Shown here piece after piece: positions 42,765 through 57,963 of a DNA stretch of 64,000 bases. The notes below the pieces were generated by a model. That model was not told the DNA's origin, ran no database searches, and saw nothing but the letters and a program-made list of their open reading frames with translations. The translations under genes and the position numbers were made by a program. Within the stretch, counting starts at the first letter, position 1, and each line of letters begins with the position of its first letter. This stretch comes from Halomarina rubra (lineage in GTDB: Archaea; Halobacteriota; Halobacteria; Halobacteriales; Haloarculaceae): contig NZ_JALXFV010000003.1 of NCBI RefSeq assembly GCF_023699475.1, positions 415,454 through 479,453 of the forward strand, written 5' to 3'.

Positions 42765-43517
42765 TCACCACTCCATCCCGCCGTTGACGGCGAGCACCTG
42801 GCCGGTCATGTAGCTCGACTCGGGCGAGGAGAGGAAACGGACGATGCCGCTGACGTCCTCGACGCTCGCGAACCGGCGCAGCGGAATCCGCTCCAAGATC
42901 TTCTCTTGGACGCGCTCTGGCACCTCGTCGAGCATGTCGGTCTGGACGAACCCCGGGGCGACGCAGTTGGCGGTCGACCCCGAGCGGGCCATCTCCAGGG
43001 CGATAGTGCGGGTGAACCCGAACATCCCCGACTTGGTGGTCGCGTAGTTGGCCTGCCCGTAGTTGCCCTGCTGGCCGACGACGCTGGAGATGTTGATGAG
43101 ACGGCCCTGGTCGGACTCCAGCAGGTCCGAGAACAGACAGTTCGTGCAGTTGTACACGCCGCCGAGGTTGACGTCCATCACCCGGTCCCAGTCCTCGCGG
43201 GTCATGTTCTTGAACGTCTTGTCGATGGTGATGCCGGCGTTGTTGACGAGCACGTCGACCGGCCCGAACGCGTCGCGGACGTCCTCGCACATCGCCTCGA
43301 CCTGCGCGTGGTCGGCGACGTCGCCCTGGGCGGTGACGGCCCGGCCGCCAGCGTCCTCGATGCGGTCGACGACCTCCGCGGCCTCACCCTCCGAGGAGCG
43401 GAAGTTGACGGCGACGTTCGCGCCGTGTTCGCCGAGTTCGAGGGCGATGCCGCGCCCGATACCGCGTGAACCGCCGGTGACGAGACAGGTCTGACCCGAG
43501 AGCATCTCACTTCGCAT
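42765..43517 (-). CDS. phaB: Acetoacetyl-CoA reductase
   Basis: A 250-residue NADPH-dependent SDR that makes (R)-3-hydroxyacyl-CoA for PHA. Cofactor motif TGGSRGIG, NNAG, and the catalytic SS-Y-K (ISSVVGQQGNYGQANYATTK) are intact. Close to FabG; the PHA role follows from its position 69 nt after phaC. ATG at 43517 or 43505. Confidence 0.9.
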   Translation of the reverse strand: MRSEMLSGQTCLVTGGSRGIGRGIALELGEHGANVAVNFRSSEGEAAEVVDRIEDAGGRAVTAQGDVADHAQVEAMCEDVRDAFGPVDVLVNNAGITIDKTFKNMTREDWDRVMDVNLGGVYNCTNCLFSDLLESDQGRLINISSVVGQQGNYGQANYATTKSGMFGFTRTIALEMARSGSTANCVAPGFVQTDMLDEVPERVQEKILERIPLRRFASVEDVSGIVRFLSSPESSYMTGQVLAVNGGMEW

Positions 43518-43586: not shown

Positions 43587-45014
43587 CTACTCGGTCAGGC
43601 CGTCGAGCCACTCCCGAGCGCGTGCCTCGCCGACCTCTGCGGCCTCCGCGACCGTCGCCACGTCCGCGCTGGCGAGGTCGTCGACGGTCGCGATGCCCGC
43701 CGCTCGGAGTCGTTCGGCGTACGTCGGGCCGATACCGTCGACGATTTCGACGTCTTCGCCCTCGGTGCCTGCCGGACCGGCCTCCGCTTCTTCGACGTCG
43801 GCGCTCGCTTCTTCGACGTCGTCGGAGACGTCGGCCCCTGCCTCGCTCTCCACGACGACCTCGACGTCCTCCGATTCGGCCACGTCGTCGAACGCGCCCT
43901 CGGCGTCGCCGTCTCCGCTCTTCTCGTGGTACCACTCGGCGACCTTCGGCCAGACCTCCTTGTGGGAACTGCCCGACACGGAGAGGCCGATGTGGCCCGT
44001 CGGGTACTCGATGACCGTCACGTCGTCGCTGCCGACGACGTCGTTGAACGGTTTCGAGGCTCCCGGCGGGATGAGGTGGTCGTACTCGCCGAGAATCTGG
44101 AGGACGGGCATGTCGACGTTCGAGATGTCGACGTGTTTGCCGTCGAGCTCCAGCTCGTTCTTGTACAGCTTGTTGTCCTGGTAGATGTCCTCGAGGAACT
44201 GGACGTACGCCGCGCCGGCGACGTCGATACCCTCGGAGAGCCACCGCTCCATGCGGGCGAAGTTCTCGACGAAGTCCTCGTTCTCGACGTTGTCGTACAG
44301 GCGGACGTACTTCGAGACGTAGTTGGCGACGGGGTCCATCAGCGCGAACCCCACGTCGAGGAACTCGCTGGGCATGTTGCCGTACACCTCCGTCACGTCC
44401 CGTGGGTCGTAGTACTCGTCGTCGCCCCACGTCTCGAGGACGCCACCGCTCTCCTCGAAGCAGAGGCCCGCGGCCATCAGCCCGAGGTTCTTCACCTTCT
44501 CGGGGTGGAGCGCGGCGTACATCACAGACATCGTCCCGCCCATGCAGTAGCCCAGCACGTTGATGGCGTCCTGCCCCGAGCGTTCGCGGACCACGTCGAC
44601 GCAGTTCTCGATGTAGCGGTTGACGTAGTCGTCGAGCGTCAGGTGGCGGTCGAGCCGCGACGGCTCGTTCCAGTCGATGAGGTAGACGTCGTGGCCCGCT
44701 TCGAGCAGGCGACGCACCACCGAGCGGTCGGGCTGGAGGTCGAGGATGAACGGCTTGTTGATGAGCGCGTAGATGACGAGGATGGGCACCTCGTTCTGCT
44801 CGTCGCTCTGGGACTCGTAGTGAAGCAACTCCAGCTTGTTCTCGGTGTAGACGACCTCGCTGGGCGTCTCGCCGACCTCGACGGACTGGAGGGTCTCCAG
44901 TCGGTCGTCGACGACCTCGCTGCGTTCGAACGCGCCCGTCGTCGCCTCCAGCAGTTCGCGCTGGGTGTTGACGGCCAGGTCGAACGGGTTGGGCGTCGAG
45001 TCCTCGCGGCTCAT
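43587..45014 (-). CDS. phaC: PHA synthase catalytic subunit with C-terminal helix-hairpin-helix module
   Basis: A 475-residue class III-type synthase subunit that polymerises hydroxyacyl-CoA. The nucleophile is C157 in the lipase-like box GYCMGG; D312 ([10 protein letters not shown]) and H341 (YPTGHIGLS) complete the triad. The core ends near 367. Then comes an acidic linker (about 368-420) and residues about 421-475 read as a HhH module ([20 protein letters not shown], then [18 protein letters not shown]). Haloarchaeal PhaC is known to be longer at the C-terminus; a HhH fold there is my inference. The start overlaps the phaE stop (ATGA). Confidence 0.96.
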
Positions 45015-45553
45015 TCGTCCTCCAGATGCTCCAGGATGCGGTCGAGTCGGTCCTCGACGGCCTGCTGGCGGCGCTCGAGTTCGACGAGGCGACCGGCCAC
45101 CTCGTCGACGTCGCCGCGCGTCGAGAAGCCGAGCTGTGAGAGCGTCTCCTCGCTGACCTCGTCGGTCTGCTGTTGGAGGTCCATCATCGCCTCGACCATC
45201 GAGCCCTGGGAGGCGGCGAACGCCGTCGTCCCCATGACCTCCTTGAACGCGTCGTTGGCGCTGCGCAGCCAGATGTCGCGGAACTCGGTGAACGAGACGT
45301 CCTCGCCCTCGGCGGCGTCGGTGACGCGCTCGTACATCTGGTCGGCGGCGTCCATCCACACCTCGTAGGCCCTCGCGTAGGACTCGGCGCTCTCTTCGAG
45401 CTGGTCCTGGTCGAGCATCGCCTGCTCGACGCCCTGGGTCCACGACTCCATGAACTTGGCCTGCGCCTCCATGTTCTGCTCGACGGAGCGCGCCATCGCC
45501 TCGTTCATCTGCTCGGCCATGTTGAGCCAGTTGAACTGCGCCTGGTCGCTCAT
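45011..45553 (-). CDS. phaE: PHA synthase subunit PhaE
   Basis: A 180-residue helical, acidic partner of PhaC. It has a PhaE-like central segment ([22 protein letters not shown]) and a C-terminal coiled coil ([20 protein letters not shown]). It is much shorter than bacterial PhaE, as is usual in haloarchaea. Its start overlaps the phaP stop and its stop overlaps the phaC start, both ATGA. Confidence 0.92.
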
Positions 45554-46206
45554 TCTTCCTCCTGGCTCCGGCGCTGGAGCTCCTCGACCTGCTCTTGCAT
45601 GCGGTCGACCTGCTCGCGGTACTGTTCGAGTTGCTGTTCGAACGTCTCGCGGAACTGCTCGCTCTGACGCTCGAAGGCGTCGCTCATCTCCTCGGCCTGC
45701 CCCTCCATCTCCGACTGGAGGCGCTCGTACTGCTCCAGGGACTCCTCCATCGTCGTGATGGTGCGTTCCTGGACGTCCTCGTGGGCCTCCAACAGGGCCT
45801 CGACCTGCGCTTCGAGCGCGTCGAGGTACGCCTCGGAGAACTCCTCGTACTCCTCGACGGAGCGCTCCATCCCCTCGCCGGCGGCGTCGAACGCCTCCTC
45901 GTGGGCCTCCAGCAGGTTGTCGAACCCCTCGTCGACCGAGCGGCGCATCTCGCGGACGCCGCGCGTGCCGACGCCGGGGGCGCTCATCGTCTCGACGGCG
46001 TCGAGGTACGCGTGGATGCCGTCGCGGGCGAACTCGACGCCCGTTCGCTGGGTCTCCTCCTGAGTGTCCATCCCGTCGAGCATCGCGTGGTTCATGCGTC
46101 GCTGGAAGTCCAGCGAGCGCTCGAACGCCTGTTGCCCTTGCTTGACGGCGTCGCGCTGGAGTTCGAATGCGGTGCTCATCGGTCCGGTGTAGCTGTTGTC
46201 AGTCAT
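45550..46206 (-). CDS. phaP: Phasin, PHA granule-associated protein
   Basis: A 218-residue all-helical acidic protein. The N-terminal half ([20 protein letters not shown]) is phasin-like; the C-terminal half (about 120-215) is a long Glu/Gln-rich coiled coil. It is longer than the roughly 150-residue phasin of Haloferax mediterranei. It coats PHA granules. Its start overlaps the phaR stop by 8 nt. Confidence 0.9.
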
Positions 46207-46519
46207 CTGAGTTTCCTCGGTTTCGTTTGATCGGTACGACGACGGTCTGCACGATGTCTCCCTCTTCGATGTCGAGGGCTTCTCGTTCGGCGTCCGGAAT
46301 CGAAATCCGGCCGCCGCTCTGGACCCGGGTCTTGAACATCGCCAACTGGCTCATCGCGCCCAACTGCGACGGGACGGAGTCGCCCATCCCGCCCAGGCCG
46401 TTGGCGTCGAGCATCCGCTGGAAGTACTGCTGTTGGCGGTCCAGCGCCTCCTCGGACGCCTCCTGGAACTCCCGCGCGAACAGCGCGGGCGGCCACATCG
46501 GGTCGCGGTCGTCGGACAT
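46199..46519 (-). CDS. phaR: AbrB/SpoVT-domain regulator PhaR
   Basis: A 106-residue protein. The N-terminal part (FAREFQEASEEALDRQQQYF) is helical and phasin-like. Residues about 62-100 form a swapped-hairpin AbrB domain (FKTRVQSGGRISIPDAERE, then LDIEEGDIVQTVVVPI). In Haloferax mediterranei PhaR binds DNA and granules and represses phaRP. First gene of the phaRPEC(B) operon. The start is supported by a TATA at 46548. Confidence 0.92.
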   Translation of the reverse strand: MSDDRDPMWPPALFAREFQEASEEALDRQQQYFQRMLDANGLGGMGDSVPSQLGAMSQLAMFKTRVQSGGRISIPDAEREALDIEEGDIVQTVVVPIKRNRGNSDD

Positions 46520-46711: not shown

Positions 46712-47332
46712 ATGAGCTACACGCCCCCGTCGCTGTTCGAACCGTGGGTCAAGACGTCGGAGCTGTTCGTCGACAGTGTGGTCGCCGCCAACCGCGCGAC
46801 GGCCGCGGCTTTCGGCGTCCCGATGTCGGCCGACGGTGACGCGCCGACGGGCGACGCCGACACCGAAGAACGACTCGAACCGGGCGAGGACCTCCCCGAG
46901 TGGGACACCGAACGGACGGTCCACTCCCGCGAGAACGTCACCGTCGGCGACGGCGTCCGGTTCACCAAGACCATCACCGAACGCGACGTCGAGCGCTTCG
47001 CCGCCGCCAGCGGCGACACCAACCCGCTCCACCTCGACGAGTCGTACGCAGCGGACACCCGATTCAAGGGTCGCATCGCCCACGGGACGCTCGTCGGTGG
47101 CCTCATCAGCGCCGCGCTCGCCCGGTTCCCGGGCAACGTCATCTACCTCTCACAGGACCTCGAGTTCCTCAGACCGGTCCGCATCGGCGACCGCATCACC
47201 GCCGACGTCGAGATCGTCGAGGAGTTCGGCGACGACCGATTCCGACTCACCACCCGCGTCCGCAGCGGCGAGGACGCGGTCATCGAGGGCGAGGCCGTCG
47301 TCCTCATCGACCACGCACCGGACGCGCAGTGA
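46712..47332 (+). CDS. phaJ: MaoC-type (R)-specific enoyl-CoA hydratase
   Basis: A 206-residue hot-dog-fold protein. The catalytic dyad is D102 and H107 (SGDTNPLHLDE), followed by IAHGTLVGGLISAALA. A 70-residue N-terminal extension, partly amphipathic and acidic, precedes the domain. (R)-hydratases feed beta-oxidation intermediates to PHA synthase. It is divergent from phaR, sharing a 192-bp control region with the tandem repeats. MaoC-family members with other roles exist, so the symbol rests on context. Confidence 0.85.
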   Translation: MSYTPPSLFEPWVKTSELFVDSVVAANRATAAAFGVPMSADGDAPTGDADTEERLEPGEDLPEWDTERTVHSRENVTVGDGVRFTKTITERDVERFAAASGDTNPLHLDESYAADTRFKGRIAHGTLVGGLISAALARFPGNVIYLSQDLEFLRPVRIGDRITADVEIVEEFGDDRFRLTTRVRSGEDAVIEGEAVVLIDHAPDAQ

Positions 47333-48036: not shown

Positions 48037-50327
48037 CAGTAGTCACCGAGGCTGGTCTGGTCCTCCTCCTCGGGGTCGTTGCCGGACTGCGTCCGGCCGC
48101 TCGCCGAGCTTTGCTCGGCCCTGTCGGCCTCGATGGCGAGCGCGGTCGACTTCGCGTCGGGGTCCTCGCGGACGCCGTCCATCGAGGTGTCCTCTCGCCC
48201 GGCGTTCTCCAGGATGGACTCGGCGGTCTGCCGGCGACCGCGGAGCGCACCGAGGACGACCGACTTCTCGGCGTTGCGGAGGTCAGAGCGGTCCTCGATA
48301 CCCGCCTCGTACAGCCGCCGGGCGCGTTTGCGACCGACGCCTCGCACCCCGGCGAGGTCGATGAGGTCCTCTCCGACGCCGTGTTTCACCCGGACGCGGG
48401 CCTCGCGGATGGCCGGGGCGATGGTGAGGTCGAGTTCCCCGGCGAGGCGTTCGGCCGCGCCCAGCAACCACTCGGCGGTGTCGACCTTCCCGCGGACGTC
48501 GCCGGGGCCGACGCCGTAGCGTTCGGCGATGCGGTCCTCTTCGACCTCGCCGGCCCAGTCTTCGAGCATCCGTGCGGTCTTGAGCGCCGACAGCCAGTCC
48601 TCGAACCGGGCGTCCTCGAACTCGCTGGGCATCGCGCCGAGGAACTCCGACTCGCGTTCGTACGCGAGCATCGTGTACTGCTCGCGGTCGCCCGAGCGCA
48701 GGTAGAGGTCGTACATGTCCGGCGTGCGACTGACGAGGTGGTAGAGACCCATCGCGGTCGCGTCGGTCGCTCCGCGGAGCCCGTCGATTATCTCGGCGGC
48801 GCTCATCGGGTCGAGGTAGAGTCTGGAGACGGTGTGGCCGATGCTGGTGGCGGCGAGGCTGTCGCCCTCTTTCTCGAGGAACTCGTTGGCGACGAGGTAC
48901 GCGACGACGTCGTCGGTGACGCGTTCGAGGCGACCCGGTTCGTCGGTCTGGGTCGCGTACAGCGTCCGTTCGAGGAAGCTCAGGAGGCTCGACCGGGAGT
49001 CGGCGAACCCGCTGGCGACGGTGGCGAGGACGTGCGTCCGCAGGGCGGGTTCGGCGGCGAGTTTCGACCGGACGGCCTCGGGGTCGGCCCAGACGTAGCG
49101 CTCGAACAGTTCGTCGAGTTCGTCGTGGCTGTTCGCCAGCAGGACGGCCTCGCCGTACGGGTCGAGACCGGGGCGGCCCGCCCGCCCGAACATCTGGTGG
49201 ACTTCGAGCACCGAGAGGGGAGCCATCCCACCCACGGAGCCGTCGTAGCGTCGCCAGTCGCGGACGACGACCCGTCGGGAGGGCGTGTTGACCCCCGCCG
49301 CGAGCGTCGGCGTCGCACAGACGACCTTGATGAGGCGGTCCTGGAACGCCCCCTCGACGAGCGAGCGGTGGTCACGGGCGAGCCCCGCGTGGTGGAACGC
49401 CGCACCGCGTTCGACGGCTGCCGCGAGGTCGTCGCTCGTGTCGGTGTCGCTCACCTCCCGGATGGCGTCGGCCACCTCGCCGAGCGCCTCCTGTTCCTCG
49501 TTCGAGAGCGTCTCGCTCACGACACCCGCGAGGCGCTTGGCCGCACCCTCGGCGTTGCGCCGGGAGTTGACGAACACGAGCGTCGAGCCGTCCTCGTCGA
49601 GCGTGTCCCGGACGATAGCCGAGGTGGGTTTCTCGTTACCCCGCACGGGGAGTTCGCGCTTCTCGCCGTCGTCGAAGTGGAGCGCCTGCCCGTAGTGGAC
49701 GCCCGTCCGCAGGTCGATGGGTCGCCAGTCCGAGTCGACGAGTTCGGCGTCCAGCCAGTCGGCCATCTCCTCGGCGTTGCCGACCGTCGCCGAGAGGGCG
49801 ACGGTCTGGAGGTTCGGGTTCAACCGCCGAAGCTTCGCGAGCGTGACTTCCAGCGTGGGGCCACGGTGGGCGTCGTCGACGAGGTGGACCTCGTCGCTGA
49901 CGACACACGAGAGGTCGTCGATCCACGACGCACCGTTGCGCACCAGCGAGTCCACCTTCTCGCTGGTCGCGACGACGATGTCCGAGGAGGAGAGCCACTC
50001 GCCTTCCGACTCGTAGTTACCCGTCGAGACACCGACCGAGAGCCCGTAGCGTTCGAACTGTTCGAACTCCTCCTGTTTCTCGGATGCGAGCGCGCGCAAC
50101 GGGACGATGTAGAGTGCCTTCCCGCCACGAGCGACGCTGGAGAGCATCGCCAACTCGGCGATGAGCGTCTTGCCCGACGCGGTCGGGACGGAGGCGACGA
50201 GGCTGTCGCCCTCGGTGACGCCCTTCTCGACGGCTTCGGCCTGCGGCGGATAGAGCTCCTCGATACCGTCGTCCCGGAGATGTCCTGGCAGCCACTCGGG
50301 GACCTCGGGGACGTCGTCGACGTTCAT
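48036..50327 (-). CDS. hel308: ATP-dependent DNA helicase Hel308
   Basis: A 763-residue Ski2-like superfamily 2 helicase acting at stalled forks. Walker [15 protein letters not shown] box [10 protein letters not shown], motif III LSATVGN, motif [14 protein letters not shown] HhH-containing region ([19 protein letters not shown]) and an acidic C-tail follow. The tail ends QTSLGDY, similar to archaeal PCNA-interacting motifs. The TATA TTTAAA (50352-50357) supports the ATG at 50327. Confidence 0.96.
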
Positions 50328-55408: not shown

Positions 55409-57963
55409 TCGTAGTCGCTGCCGACGACTTCGCGGATGCGCTCGGCGGTCACGGCTCCCACACCCTTCACTTCCAGCAGGTCCTCCTCGTTCGCGGTCAT
55501 CACCGCCTCGACGCTCCCGAAGTGAGTGAGCAGCGCGCGGGCGGTCACCGGCCCGACGTCGGCGATGGAGCCGACGACGTACTCCTGTTGTTCGTCGAGC
55601 GTCTTGGCGGCCTTCTCGCCGTGGACGCTCACCTCGCGGTCGGACTCCTCCTGTTCGCGTCGGGCGATGACCTCGACGAGGTCGGCGGTGTCGGCCTCGT
55701 CGGTCGTCCGCAGAATCGAGGCCCCGAAGTCGATGGCGAGCGAGGCCAGTGCCCCGCGGATGGCGTTGGGGTGGACGTTGCGCGCGCCGTAGAGGTCCTC
55801 TCCCTCGACGACGACGACGGGCCGGGAGTAGTGCCGAGCGCCGTCTTTCACCTGCTCGAACATCGAGCGGTCGCCCCCGACGAGCGTGTCGAGGAAGTCG
55901 TCGACGGACTTGCGCTCGACGACGACGCGGTCCGAGAGCACGTAGTCGCCCACCGCGAGCGTCTCCAGCCGAGTAGTGATGCCGTCGCGCGTCGAGAGGT
56001 CCCGGGCGATGGTCGAGTCGAGTTCGCGCTGGTCGACGACGATCTCGACGGTGTCGCCGTCACCGCGGGCGGTCGCGACCGTGGCGTCCGCGCCGGGGCC
56101 GTCGTCCGTGTCGGTGGCGTCGTCGAGCGTCGAGTCGGACGCGCGTTCGTGGCGCTCTCCCCCTCCCTCTTCGCGGCCGGCGAACGCGTCGAGTCCGGAC
56201 TGGCCGTCCGAACCCCCCTCGTTTCCGGTCGACGCCTTCGCCCCCTCGCTCGATTTCGTGTCAACTGAGTCATCACTTTCGCTCGGGTCGTCGGTGGCGT
56301 CGGCTCCGCCGTTGGTCGCGGTCTGTGCGGCCGCGGGCGACGCGTCCGGGGTGGCCTCCGCCTCGTTCGCCGACTCGAACTCGTCGAGGCCGTGCTGGCC
56401 GAGTTCCTCGTTGACCTCGCCGGCGACGCCCTTCAGCTTCCGCAACTCCTCTTCCATGCGCTTCTCCTCCCTGCGCGAAATCCAGAAGTACGCCTCGTCG
56501 CGGGTGTCCTCGGCGAGCAGGACGTGGACCTTCCCCTCGGTCTGCCGACCGGTTCGACCCTTGCGCTGGATGGCACGGATGCCCTTCGGGACGGGTTCGT
56601 AGAAGAGGACGAGGTCGACCTCGGGGACGTCTAGACCCTCCTCCGCCACGCTCGTCGAGACGAGCACCTCGAACTCCCCGTTCCGGAACGCGTCGAGGGT
56701 CTCCTGCTGTTGTTTCTGGGTCATCCCGTCGGAGCCCTCCTTGTCGCCCTGCCCGACGAACCGGTGGGTCTCGAAGTGCTCGCCGAAGAACTCGGTGAGC
56801 GTCTCGGCGGTGTCGCGGGACTCGGTGAACACGATGACGCGCTCGCCTTCCTCGATGCCGAGCGTCTGTGCCAGCAGGATGCGCGCCCGACGGAACTTCG
56901 GGTGGAGGTCGTCGAACTGCTCGGCCCGGCGCATCGCCTCCTGGACCCGCGGGTCGGAGACGAACCGCTGGGAGGCCTTCGACGCCCCCGACGAGCGTGC
57001 GGCGTTGCGCTGGCGTTCGAAGTACCGCCGGAGGGACTCGACGGACTGGGTCTCGACGAGTTCGACCGCCCGCCGCAGCTTCATTATCTCGGCGTGGGCG
57101 GACATCCCCTGGTAGCCCTCCGACTGGTCGTTGCTCATCATCTTCTGGAGCTCCGAGCGGATGGAGTTGAGGTCTCGCTGGGACATCTCGGGGTTCGTCG
57201 AGCGCGTAACGCCCAACTGTTTGAGCTTCTCCAGGCGGTCGGTGATGACCTCGTTGAGCGCGTCTCGTATCTCGATGACGCCCTCGGGGAGTTCGACGCG
57301 CTCCCACTCCACCTCGGTCTTGTGGGTGAACTCGCTCACGTCCGAGTCGCCCTCGGTCATCACCTCCACCTCCCGAAGCCCGAGGTTCTCACAGACGACG
57401 AGAATCTCCTCCTTGTCCCCACCGGGCGAGGCGCTCATGCCGGTCACGAGCGGGTCCGCGGCGTCGGCGTGGTAGCGCTCGGCGATGTAACAGTAGGCGT
57501 AGTCGCCGGTCGCGCGGTGACACTCGTCGAAGGTGAGGTGGGTGACGTCTTCGAGCGAGATGCGGTTGCCGACGAGGTCGTTCTCGACGACCTGGGGGGT
57601 GGCGACGACGACCTGCGCGGACTCCCACAGTTCCGCTCGGTCGTCGGGGCGGACGCTCCCGGTGAACACGACGATGTCGTCGTCCGGAATCGTCAGCGCC
57701 TCGCGGTAGAAGTCGGCGTGCTGGTTGACCAGCGGCTTCGTCGGTGCGAGCAGCAGGGACTTCCCGCCGGTCTCGTGGAGGCGCTGTGCGGTGACGAGGA
57801 GGCTCACCGCGGTCTTCCCGAGTCCCGTCGGGAGACAGACGAGCGTGTGGTCGCGGAGCGCGGCGTCGGCGAGTTCGGCCTGGTACTCCCGGCGCTGGAG
57901 CAGGCCCGGCGTGAGGAGTGGGCCGTCGATGGTCTCGGCGTCGGACTCGCTACTGGCCGCCAT
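55405..57963 (-). CDS. hef: Hef: fused SF2 helicase and XPF/ERCC4 nuclease
   Basis: An 852-residue fork-processing protein. Helicase: Walker A LPTGLGKTAVS, DECH box TFDECHRATGDYAY, motif VI IQRKGRTGRQTEG. An acidic linker (about 525-640) follows. Nuclease: GDYVLSDRVVVERKSVDDFLDTL with the ERK-x-D core intact. It ends in a HhH region (SIADVGPVTARALLTHFGSV and VKGVGAVTAERIREV). In Haloferax Hef acts at stalled forks alongside Hjc. It is translationally linked to the downstream membrane ORF. Confidence 0.96.
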   Translation of the reverse strand: MAASSESDAETIDGPLLTPGLLQRREYQAELADAALRDHTLVCLPTGLGKTAVSLLVTAQRLHETGGKSLLLAPTKPLVNQHADFYREALTIPDDDIVVFTGSVRPDDRAELWESAQVVVATPQVVENDLVGNRISLEDVTHLTFDECHRATGDYAYCYIAERYHADAADPLVTGMSASPGGDKEEILVVCENLGLREVEVMTEGDSDVSEFTHKTEVEWERVELPEGVIEIRDALNEVITDRLEKLKQLGVTRSTNPEMSQRDLNSIRSELQKMMSNDQSEGYQGMSAHAEIMKLRRAVELVETQSVESLRRYFERQRNAARSSGASKASQRFVSDPRVQEAMRRAEQFDDLHPKFRRARILLAQTLGIEEGERVIVFTESRDTAETLTEFFGEHFETHRFVGQGDKEGSDGMTQKQQQETLDAFRNGEFEVLVSTSVAEEGLDVPEVDLVLFYEPVPKGIRAIQRKGRTGRQTEGKVHVLLAEDTRDEAYFWISRREEKRMEEELRKLKGVAGEVNEELGQHGLDEFESANEAEATPDASPAAAQTATNGGADATDDPSESDDSVDTKSSEGAKASTGNEGGSDGQSGLDAFAGREEGGGERHERASDSTLDDATDTDDGPGADATVATARGDGDTVEIVVDQRELDSTIARDLSTRDGITTRLETLAVGDYVLSDRVVVERKSVDDFLDTLVGGDRSMFEQVKDGARHYSRPVVVVEGEDLYGARNVHPNAIRGALASLAIDFGASILRTTDEADTADLVEVIARREQEESDREVSVHGEKAAKTLDEQQEYVVGSIADVGPVTARALLTHFGSVEAVMTANEEDLLEVKGVGAVTAERIREVVGSDYE

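Follow-up and report, generated by a model that had tools for sequence, protein, structure and literature searches.

A conserved helix-hairpin-helix domain on an acidic tether in haloarchaeal class III PHA synthases, with a possible role in nucleic-acid docking

Introduction

Why would a PHA synthase end in a helix-hairpin-helix (HhH) domain, and what might this domain hold on to? The question is raised by the phaC gene of Halomarina rubra, which lies within a window—i.e. the whole stretch of DNA that was analysed—of 64,000 nucleotides. In Haloferax mediterranei PhaC, a disordered region and an HhH domain, missing from bacterial PhaC, have been described and likened to PhaH (PMC12028471, published in 2025), i.e. 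both the observation and the PhaH analogy are already known. As reported in reviews (PMC7137286 and PMC6631277), truncating the C-terminal extension of haloarchaeal PhaC lowers PHA accumulation. What is added here is a family-wide survey, the signature of a ‘W-type’ HhH, an analysis of its single hairpin and its charge, and a set of natural tailless paralogs.

Results

The phaC locus

phaC is the final gene of a phaR-phaP-phaE-phaC series, with a maoC-like gene in divergent orientation and a gene for a FabG/PhaB-type reductase downstream; maoC-phaR-phaP-phaE-phaC is a gene cluster known in haloarchaea (PMC7137286). The features in and around phaC are as follows:

42765..43517, minus strand: FabG/PhaB-type short-chain reductase, downstream of phaC (Pfam adh_short_C2, E 3.3e-61)
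43587..45014, minus strand: phaC, class III PHA synthase catalytic subunit with a C-terminal HhH module, 475 aa plus stop
43917..45014, minus strand: PhaC catalytic core, residues 1-366 (C157, D312, H341), delimited by the invariant triad and the ends of bacterial homologues
43755..43916, minus strand: acidic linker, residues 367-420 (54 aa), with 22 D/E and no K/R, predicted to be mostly disordered
43590..43754, minus strand: HhH domain, residues 421-475 (Pfam HHH_5; AlphaFold2)
43692..43739, minus strand: intact hairpin [16 protein letters not shown], residues 426-441, with G427 and G429 invariant (n=122)
43608..43610, minus strand: W469 codon, invariant in 122 distinct haloarchaeal PhaC; together with R465 it marks the W-type HhH
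45011..45553, minus strand: phaE, short class III subunit, 180 aa (Pfam PHA_synth_III_E, E 1.4e-14)
45550..46206, minus strand: phaP-like phasin gene, 218 aa (cluster position; weak Phasin_2 match)
46199..46519, minus strand: phaR-like gene for an AbrB-type protein, 106 aa (weak AbrB-like/MazE matches and gene order)
46712..47332, plus strand: maoC-like dehydratase gene (Pfam MaoC_dehydratas, E 6.4e-23)

Two more HHH_5 matches in the window, both on the minus strand (48261-48359 and 55429-55569), belong to a Hel308-type helicase and Hef and are unrelated to PHA.

The original prediction had placed PhaC in a class III context with C157, D312 and H341 as catalytic residues, and this is borne out by a score of 409.5 bits against NCBIfam TIGR01836 (PHA_synth_III_C; curated cut-off 365.3), by the Cys-Asp-His triad being invariant in an alignment of 60 PhaC, by a lipase-like box (GxCxGG) that reads GYCMGG, and by the partner gene phaE being encoded next to phaC with a 4-base overlap. 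Halomarina oriensis PhaC, the nearest named relative found, shares 91% identity in the core, 79% in the HhH and 72% in the aligned linker.

Bacterial homologues stop at about residue 366, with 0-4 residues beyond, whereas the PhaC of the window continues for another 109 residues (367-475), as is typical of the haloarchaeal subtype with a long C-terminus, i.e. with an extension of about 100 residues that is absent from bacterial class III PhaC. The extension had thus been correctly spotted and its length, given as about 108 residues, nearly so; the coordinates assigned to the tail (43587-43850) did not stand, since they start at residue 389 within the linker, which actually begins at 43916 (residue 367). 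Both of its predicted parts, the acidic tether and the HhH module, are recovered. Residues 425-473 match Pfam HHH_5 (PF14520) with an E value of 8.4e-12 and 45.8 bits (curated cut-off 27), and AlphaFold2, when given the tail alone—a check proposed at the outset—returns a confident four-helix HhH with a mean pLDDT of 93. In the full-length model, the linker falls below a pLDDT of 50 over residues 376-395 and 397-418, and the HhH lies mostly at 91-97. By sequence and model, therefore, PhaC carries a predicted HhH fold of the HHH_5 type on a predicted disordered tether.

The tail does not have the two G-h-G hairpins expected of an (HhH)2 DNA-binding domain: in the 122 distinct haloarchaeal PhaC, the first hairpin is invariant, and the second is degenerate, with glycine at both 460 and 462 in just eight of the 122. 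The domain is also acidic, with an average net charge of -9.4 and just 3.2 K/R per domain, and the linker preceding it averages -23. Haloarchaeal PhaC linkers consist of 40% D/E and 1.8% K/R, and range in length from 3 to 157 residues. The HhH domains of LigA and PolX in the same genome are comparably acidic (-11 and -10).

Distribution and conservation of the HhH domain

Of the 391 genomes of the class, 222 have a PhaC match. The loci fetched from these yielded 134 complete tailed PhaC, 122 of them distinct, and about 70 genomes with a PhaC match were left out of individual examination. All 122 aligned proteins have the HhH module. G427, G429, L436 and W469 are invariant (122 of 122), and Y432 (116), A433, R435 (103), G440 and R465 (109) nearly so; Q472 is found in 89. 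Mean conservation (KL) amounts to 3.39 bits in the core, 2.38 in the HhH and 1.07 in the linker. When 60 PhaC were scanned with Pfam, HHH_5 was detected in 49 of 49 main haloarchaeal proteins and in 0 of 11 others, which by our own count are ten bacterial proteins and one Halococcus paralog. With an alignment of this size, four invariant residues and this partitioning of HHH_5, the observation is well beyond chance. In each of twelve further divergent genomes, one or more PhaC, complete or as a fragment, has the HhH; these genomes add the families f2, f6 and f11, so that ten haloarchaeal families are covered in all. Distances between cores and between HhH domains are correlated (Mantel r 0.50; maximum of 500 permutations 0.12), which indicates that the module travels with its enzyme. 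Judged from these sequences, the HhH tail is near-universal in haloarchaeal PhaC, is missing in those bacterial class III PhaC that were examined, and has been inherited together with the core.

Several artefacts and apparent losses could be discarded. The HhH is not a misread frame, as it is kept in 122 proteins. Where a protein match ended early, the fetched loci had long linkers followed by the HhH. The module has not been lost in Halococcus either, where every genome pairs a tailed PhaC with a tailless paralog.

A few divergent haloarchaeal PhaC paralogs, mostly plasmid-borne, do come without an HhH. Those on plasmids of Salinigranum marinum (L212) and Halococcus dombrowskii (L210), in Halococcus (L146/L147) and in Natronococcus sp. 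AD-5 (L218) have an intact Cys-Asp-His triad and an extension of just 0-22 residues; a tailless PhaC-like protein of Halomarina sp. BND7 has a Ser nucleophile. In Salinigranum marinum, the gene directly adjoins a PhaE-like gene. Conversely, H. mediterranei PhaC3 has kept the HhH although there is no adjacent phaE. Truncated PhaC2-like homologues have been reported as undetected outside H. mediterranei (PMC12863089), and the tailless proteins look like counter-examples by sequence, with their orthology to PhaC2 being putative.

Two odd loci were seen on plasmids. In Salinirubellus sp. SYNS196 (L219, 3061-4832), a small ORF encoding a second HhH domain comes after an HhH-tailed phaC and overlaps it, and in Salinigranum rubrum (L215, 3001-4321), phaC apparently has a frameshift in its linker, so that the HhH is annotated as an ORF of its own. 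Searches with tblastn returned only two records for the PhaC HhH against plasmids and only two for a related HhH against phages.

Relatives of the HhH domain

The genome of H. rubra has 16 HHH_5 matches including PhaC, and nearly all others fall in ribosomal proteins or in proteins that act in nucleic-acid metabolism, i.e. UvrC, LigA, RadA, PolX, Hef, TopA, DinB, Hel308-type helicases, an RNase H-family protein, a MutS2-like ATPase and L32e. The exception, L001, is an acidic protein with the HhH at its end, encoded adjacent to aroE, and is the closest relative of the PhaC HhH within this genome. By profile score, the PhaC module comes closest to L001 and its counterpart in Halococcus, to two HerA-like ATPases and to the C-terminus of TopA. 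By inspection, R465 and W469 are common to L001 and TopA, and the HerA types have the tryptophan only. In L001 (L205:6049-7014) and its Halococcus counterpart (L171), a short helix at the N-terminus (M-[ST]-[IL]-LD-x-IKSLLG) is joined by a long, acidic stretch of low complexity and a terminal W-type HhH, and both are encoded beside aroE. The Halococcus HerA-like ATPases (L172 and L170) contain one or two W-type HhH modules, internal or terminal.

In a Foldseek search with the model of the tail, N-terminal domains of RadA/Rad51 came out best (1pzn, TM 0.79 by query; range 0.71-0.79), followed by Y-family polymerases, UvrC and NusA. Probabilities were near 1 and TM scores about 0.7-0.8, with no match at E 0.001, as expected for only 60 residues. 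The acidic HhH-type repeats of NusA bind protein. By sequence, the nearest solved structures are those of the HhH at the N-terminus of haloarchaeal ribosomal protein L32e.

Discussion

Our tentative proposal is that haloarchaeal class III PhaC carries a conserved docking domain, i.e. an HhH with one hairpin, held on a flexible acidic tether. This domain would attach the synthase, and with it the granule as it forms, to nucleic acid, chiefly to the nucleoid, and would do so without sequence specificity. The HhH of PhaC might then do in cis what bacteria achieve in trans with PhaM, PhaF and PhaH, with granules becoming spread over the chromosome. We consider this a little short of an even prospect, with the DNA step being the uncertain one. 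Docking onto nucleic acid is favoured by the company of HHH_5 proteins in the same genome, the fold similarity to RadA/Rad51 and PhaH as a precedent, and also by near relatives of the module including the topoisomerase I C-terminus and HerA-like ATPases. It is weakened by the single intact hairpin, the net charge of the domain (although the HhH of LigA and PolX are as acidic), the acidic linker and the protein-binding members of the fold (NusA), as well as by the closest own-genome relative, L001, sitting beside aroE without a known DNA role. Direct data on DNA binding or localization were not found. The evidence for a DNA tether is thus mixed, and the idea plausible. Its strictest form, in which the haloarchaeal synthase itself is the granule–nucleoid tether, with the HhH binding DNA non-specifically, granules being nucleated on the chromosome and segregating with it, and no need for the separate adaptor of bacteria, is rather doubtful.

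The HhH could also bind protein—PhaP, PhaR, PhaE, a second PhaC or some other partner—and be needed for assembly of an active complex at high salt. Conserved polar or aromatic positions outside the hairpin (Y432, R435, R465, Q472 and W469), a degenerate second hairpin, an acidic surface and the precedent set by NusA among the Foldseek matches all speak for such a role, as does the drop in PHA accumulation upon truncation (PMC7137286), which, however, fits DNA or protein docking alike. Docking of PhaE as such does not require the module, since bacterial class III PhaC lack an HhH and Salinigranum marinum has a tailless PhaC beside a PhaE-like gene. The HhH is also retained where a PhaC paralog has no phaE next to it, as in H. 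mediterranei PhaC3, which likewise speaks against a protein partner. Such a partner seems possible, if on balance not what we would expect, and slightly less likely than docking onto nucleic acid.

That linker and small domain together bind no particular ligand and just keep a hydrophobic synthase soluble or stable when KCl is at saturation is improbable: the composition and free length of the linker agree with such a tail, but this accounts for the linker and not for a folded module that is much better conserved than the linker and has four invariant residues (G427, G429, L436 and W469). Least likely of all is a module that ties the synthase to ribosomes or mRNA, as the L32e matches might suggest, because the L32e HhH, by inspection, is without the R465/W469 signature and the W-carrying TopA and HerA-type relatives point to DNA.

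Should the HhH bind DNA, a single archaeal protein would serve both as polymerase and as nucleoid tether, unlike the arrangement with PhaM, PhaF or PhaH, and there would be a mechanism behind the reported dependence of haloarchaeal PhaC on its long C-terminus. Should it bind protein, G427/G429, R465 and W469 would define an assembly interface that is missing in bacterial class III synthases. In a bioplastic producer, these same residues, i.e. the hairpin glycines, R465 and W469, would be a site to alter in order to change how large and how numerous the granules are.

Comparison with known systems

The nearest comparison is H. mediterranei PhaC (PhaC_Hme; AF-I3R9Z4), which belongs to the same enzyme family and has the same longer C-terminus with a disordered region and then an HhH. 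The two proteins are orthologues with no essential difference seen; PMC12028471 treats one species, without a survey. The N-terminal HhH of RadA/Rad51, the best fold match, is likewise a single-HhH domain of about 55 residues, but it is part of a recombinase and is without R465/W469, the RadA of the same genome having T and I at these positions.

Functionally, the closest precedent is PhaH, the HhH phasin of Caulobacter crescentus (Salinas et al. 2023, via PMC12028471 and PMC13052382), which is bound to granules and, like PhaC, has its HhH at the C-terminus. It employs an HhH domain and shows non-specific DNA binding (review PMC13052382), and a granule–nucleoid role has been proposed for it (PMC12028471). 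PhaH is a phasin, whereas the haloarchaeal HhH is fused to the synthase, and the two HhH domains are alike by description only. Among 32 bacterial Phasin_2 (PF09361) loci, i.e. the best-scoring loci only from 249 genomes of the phylum of one bacterial PhaC locus, none had an HhH, a result that does not bear on PhaH. For PhaM of Cupriavidus necator and PhaF of Pseudomonas putida, an analogous job, i.e. non-specific attachment of granules to the nucleoid, has been proposed (PMC13052382); these are separate proteins, however, with histone-like C-termini whose sequence is unrelated to the PhaC HhH.
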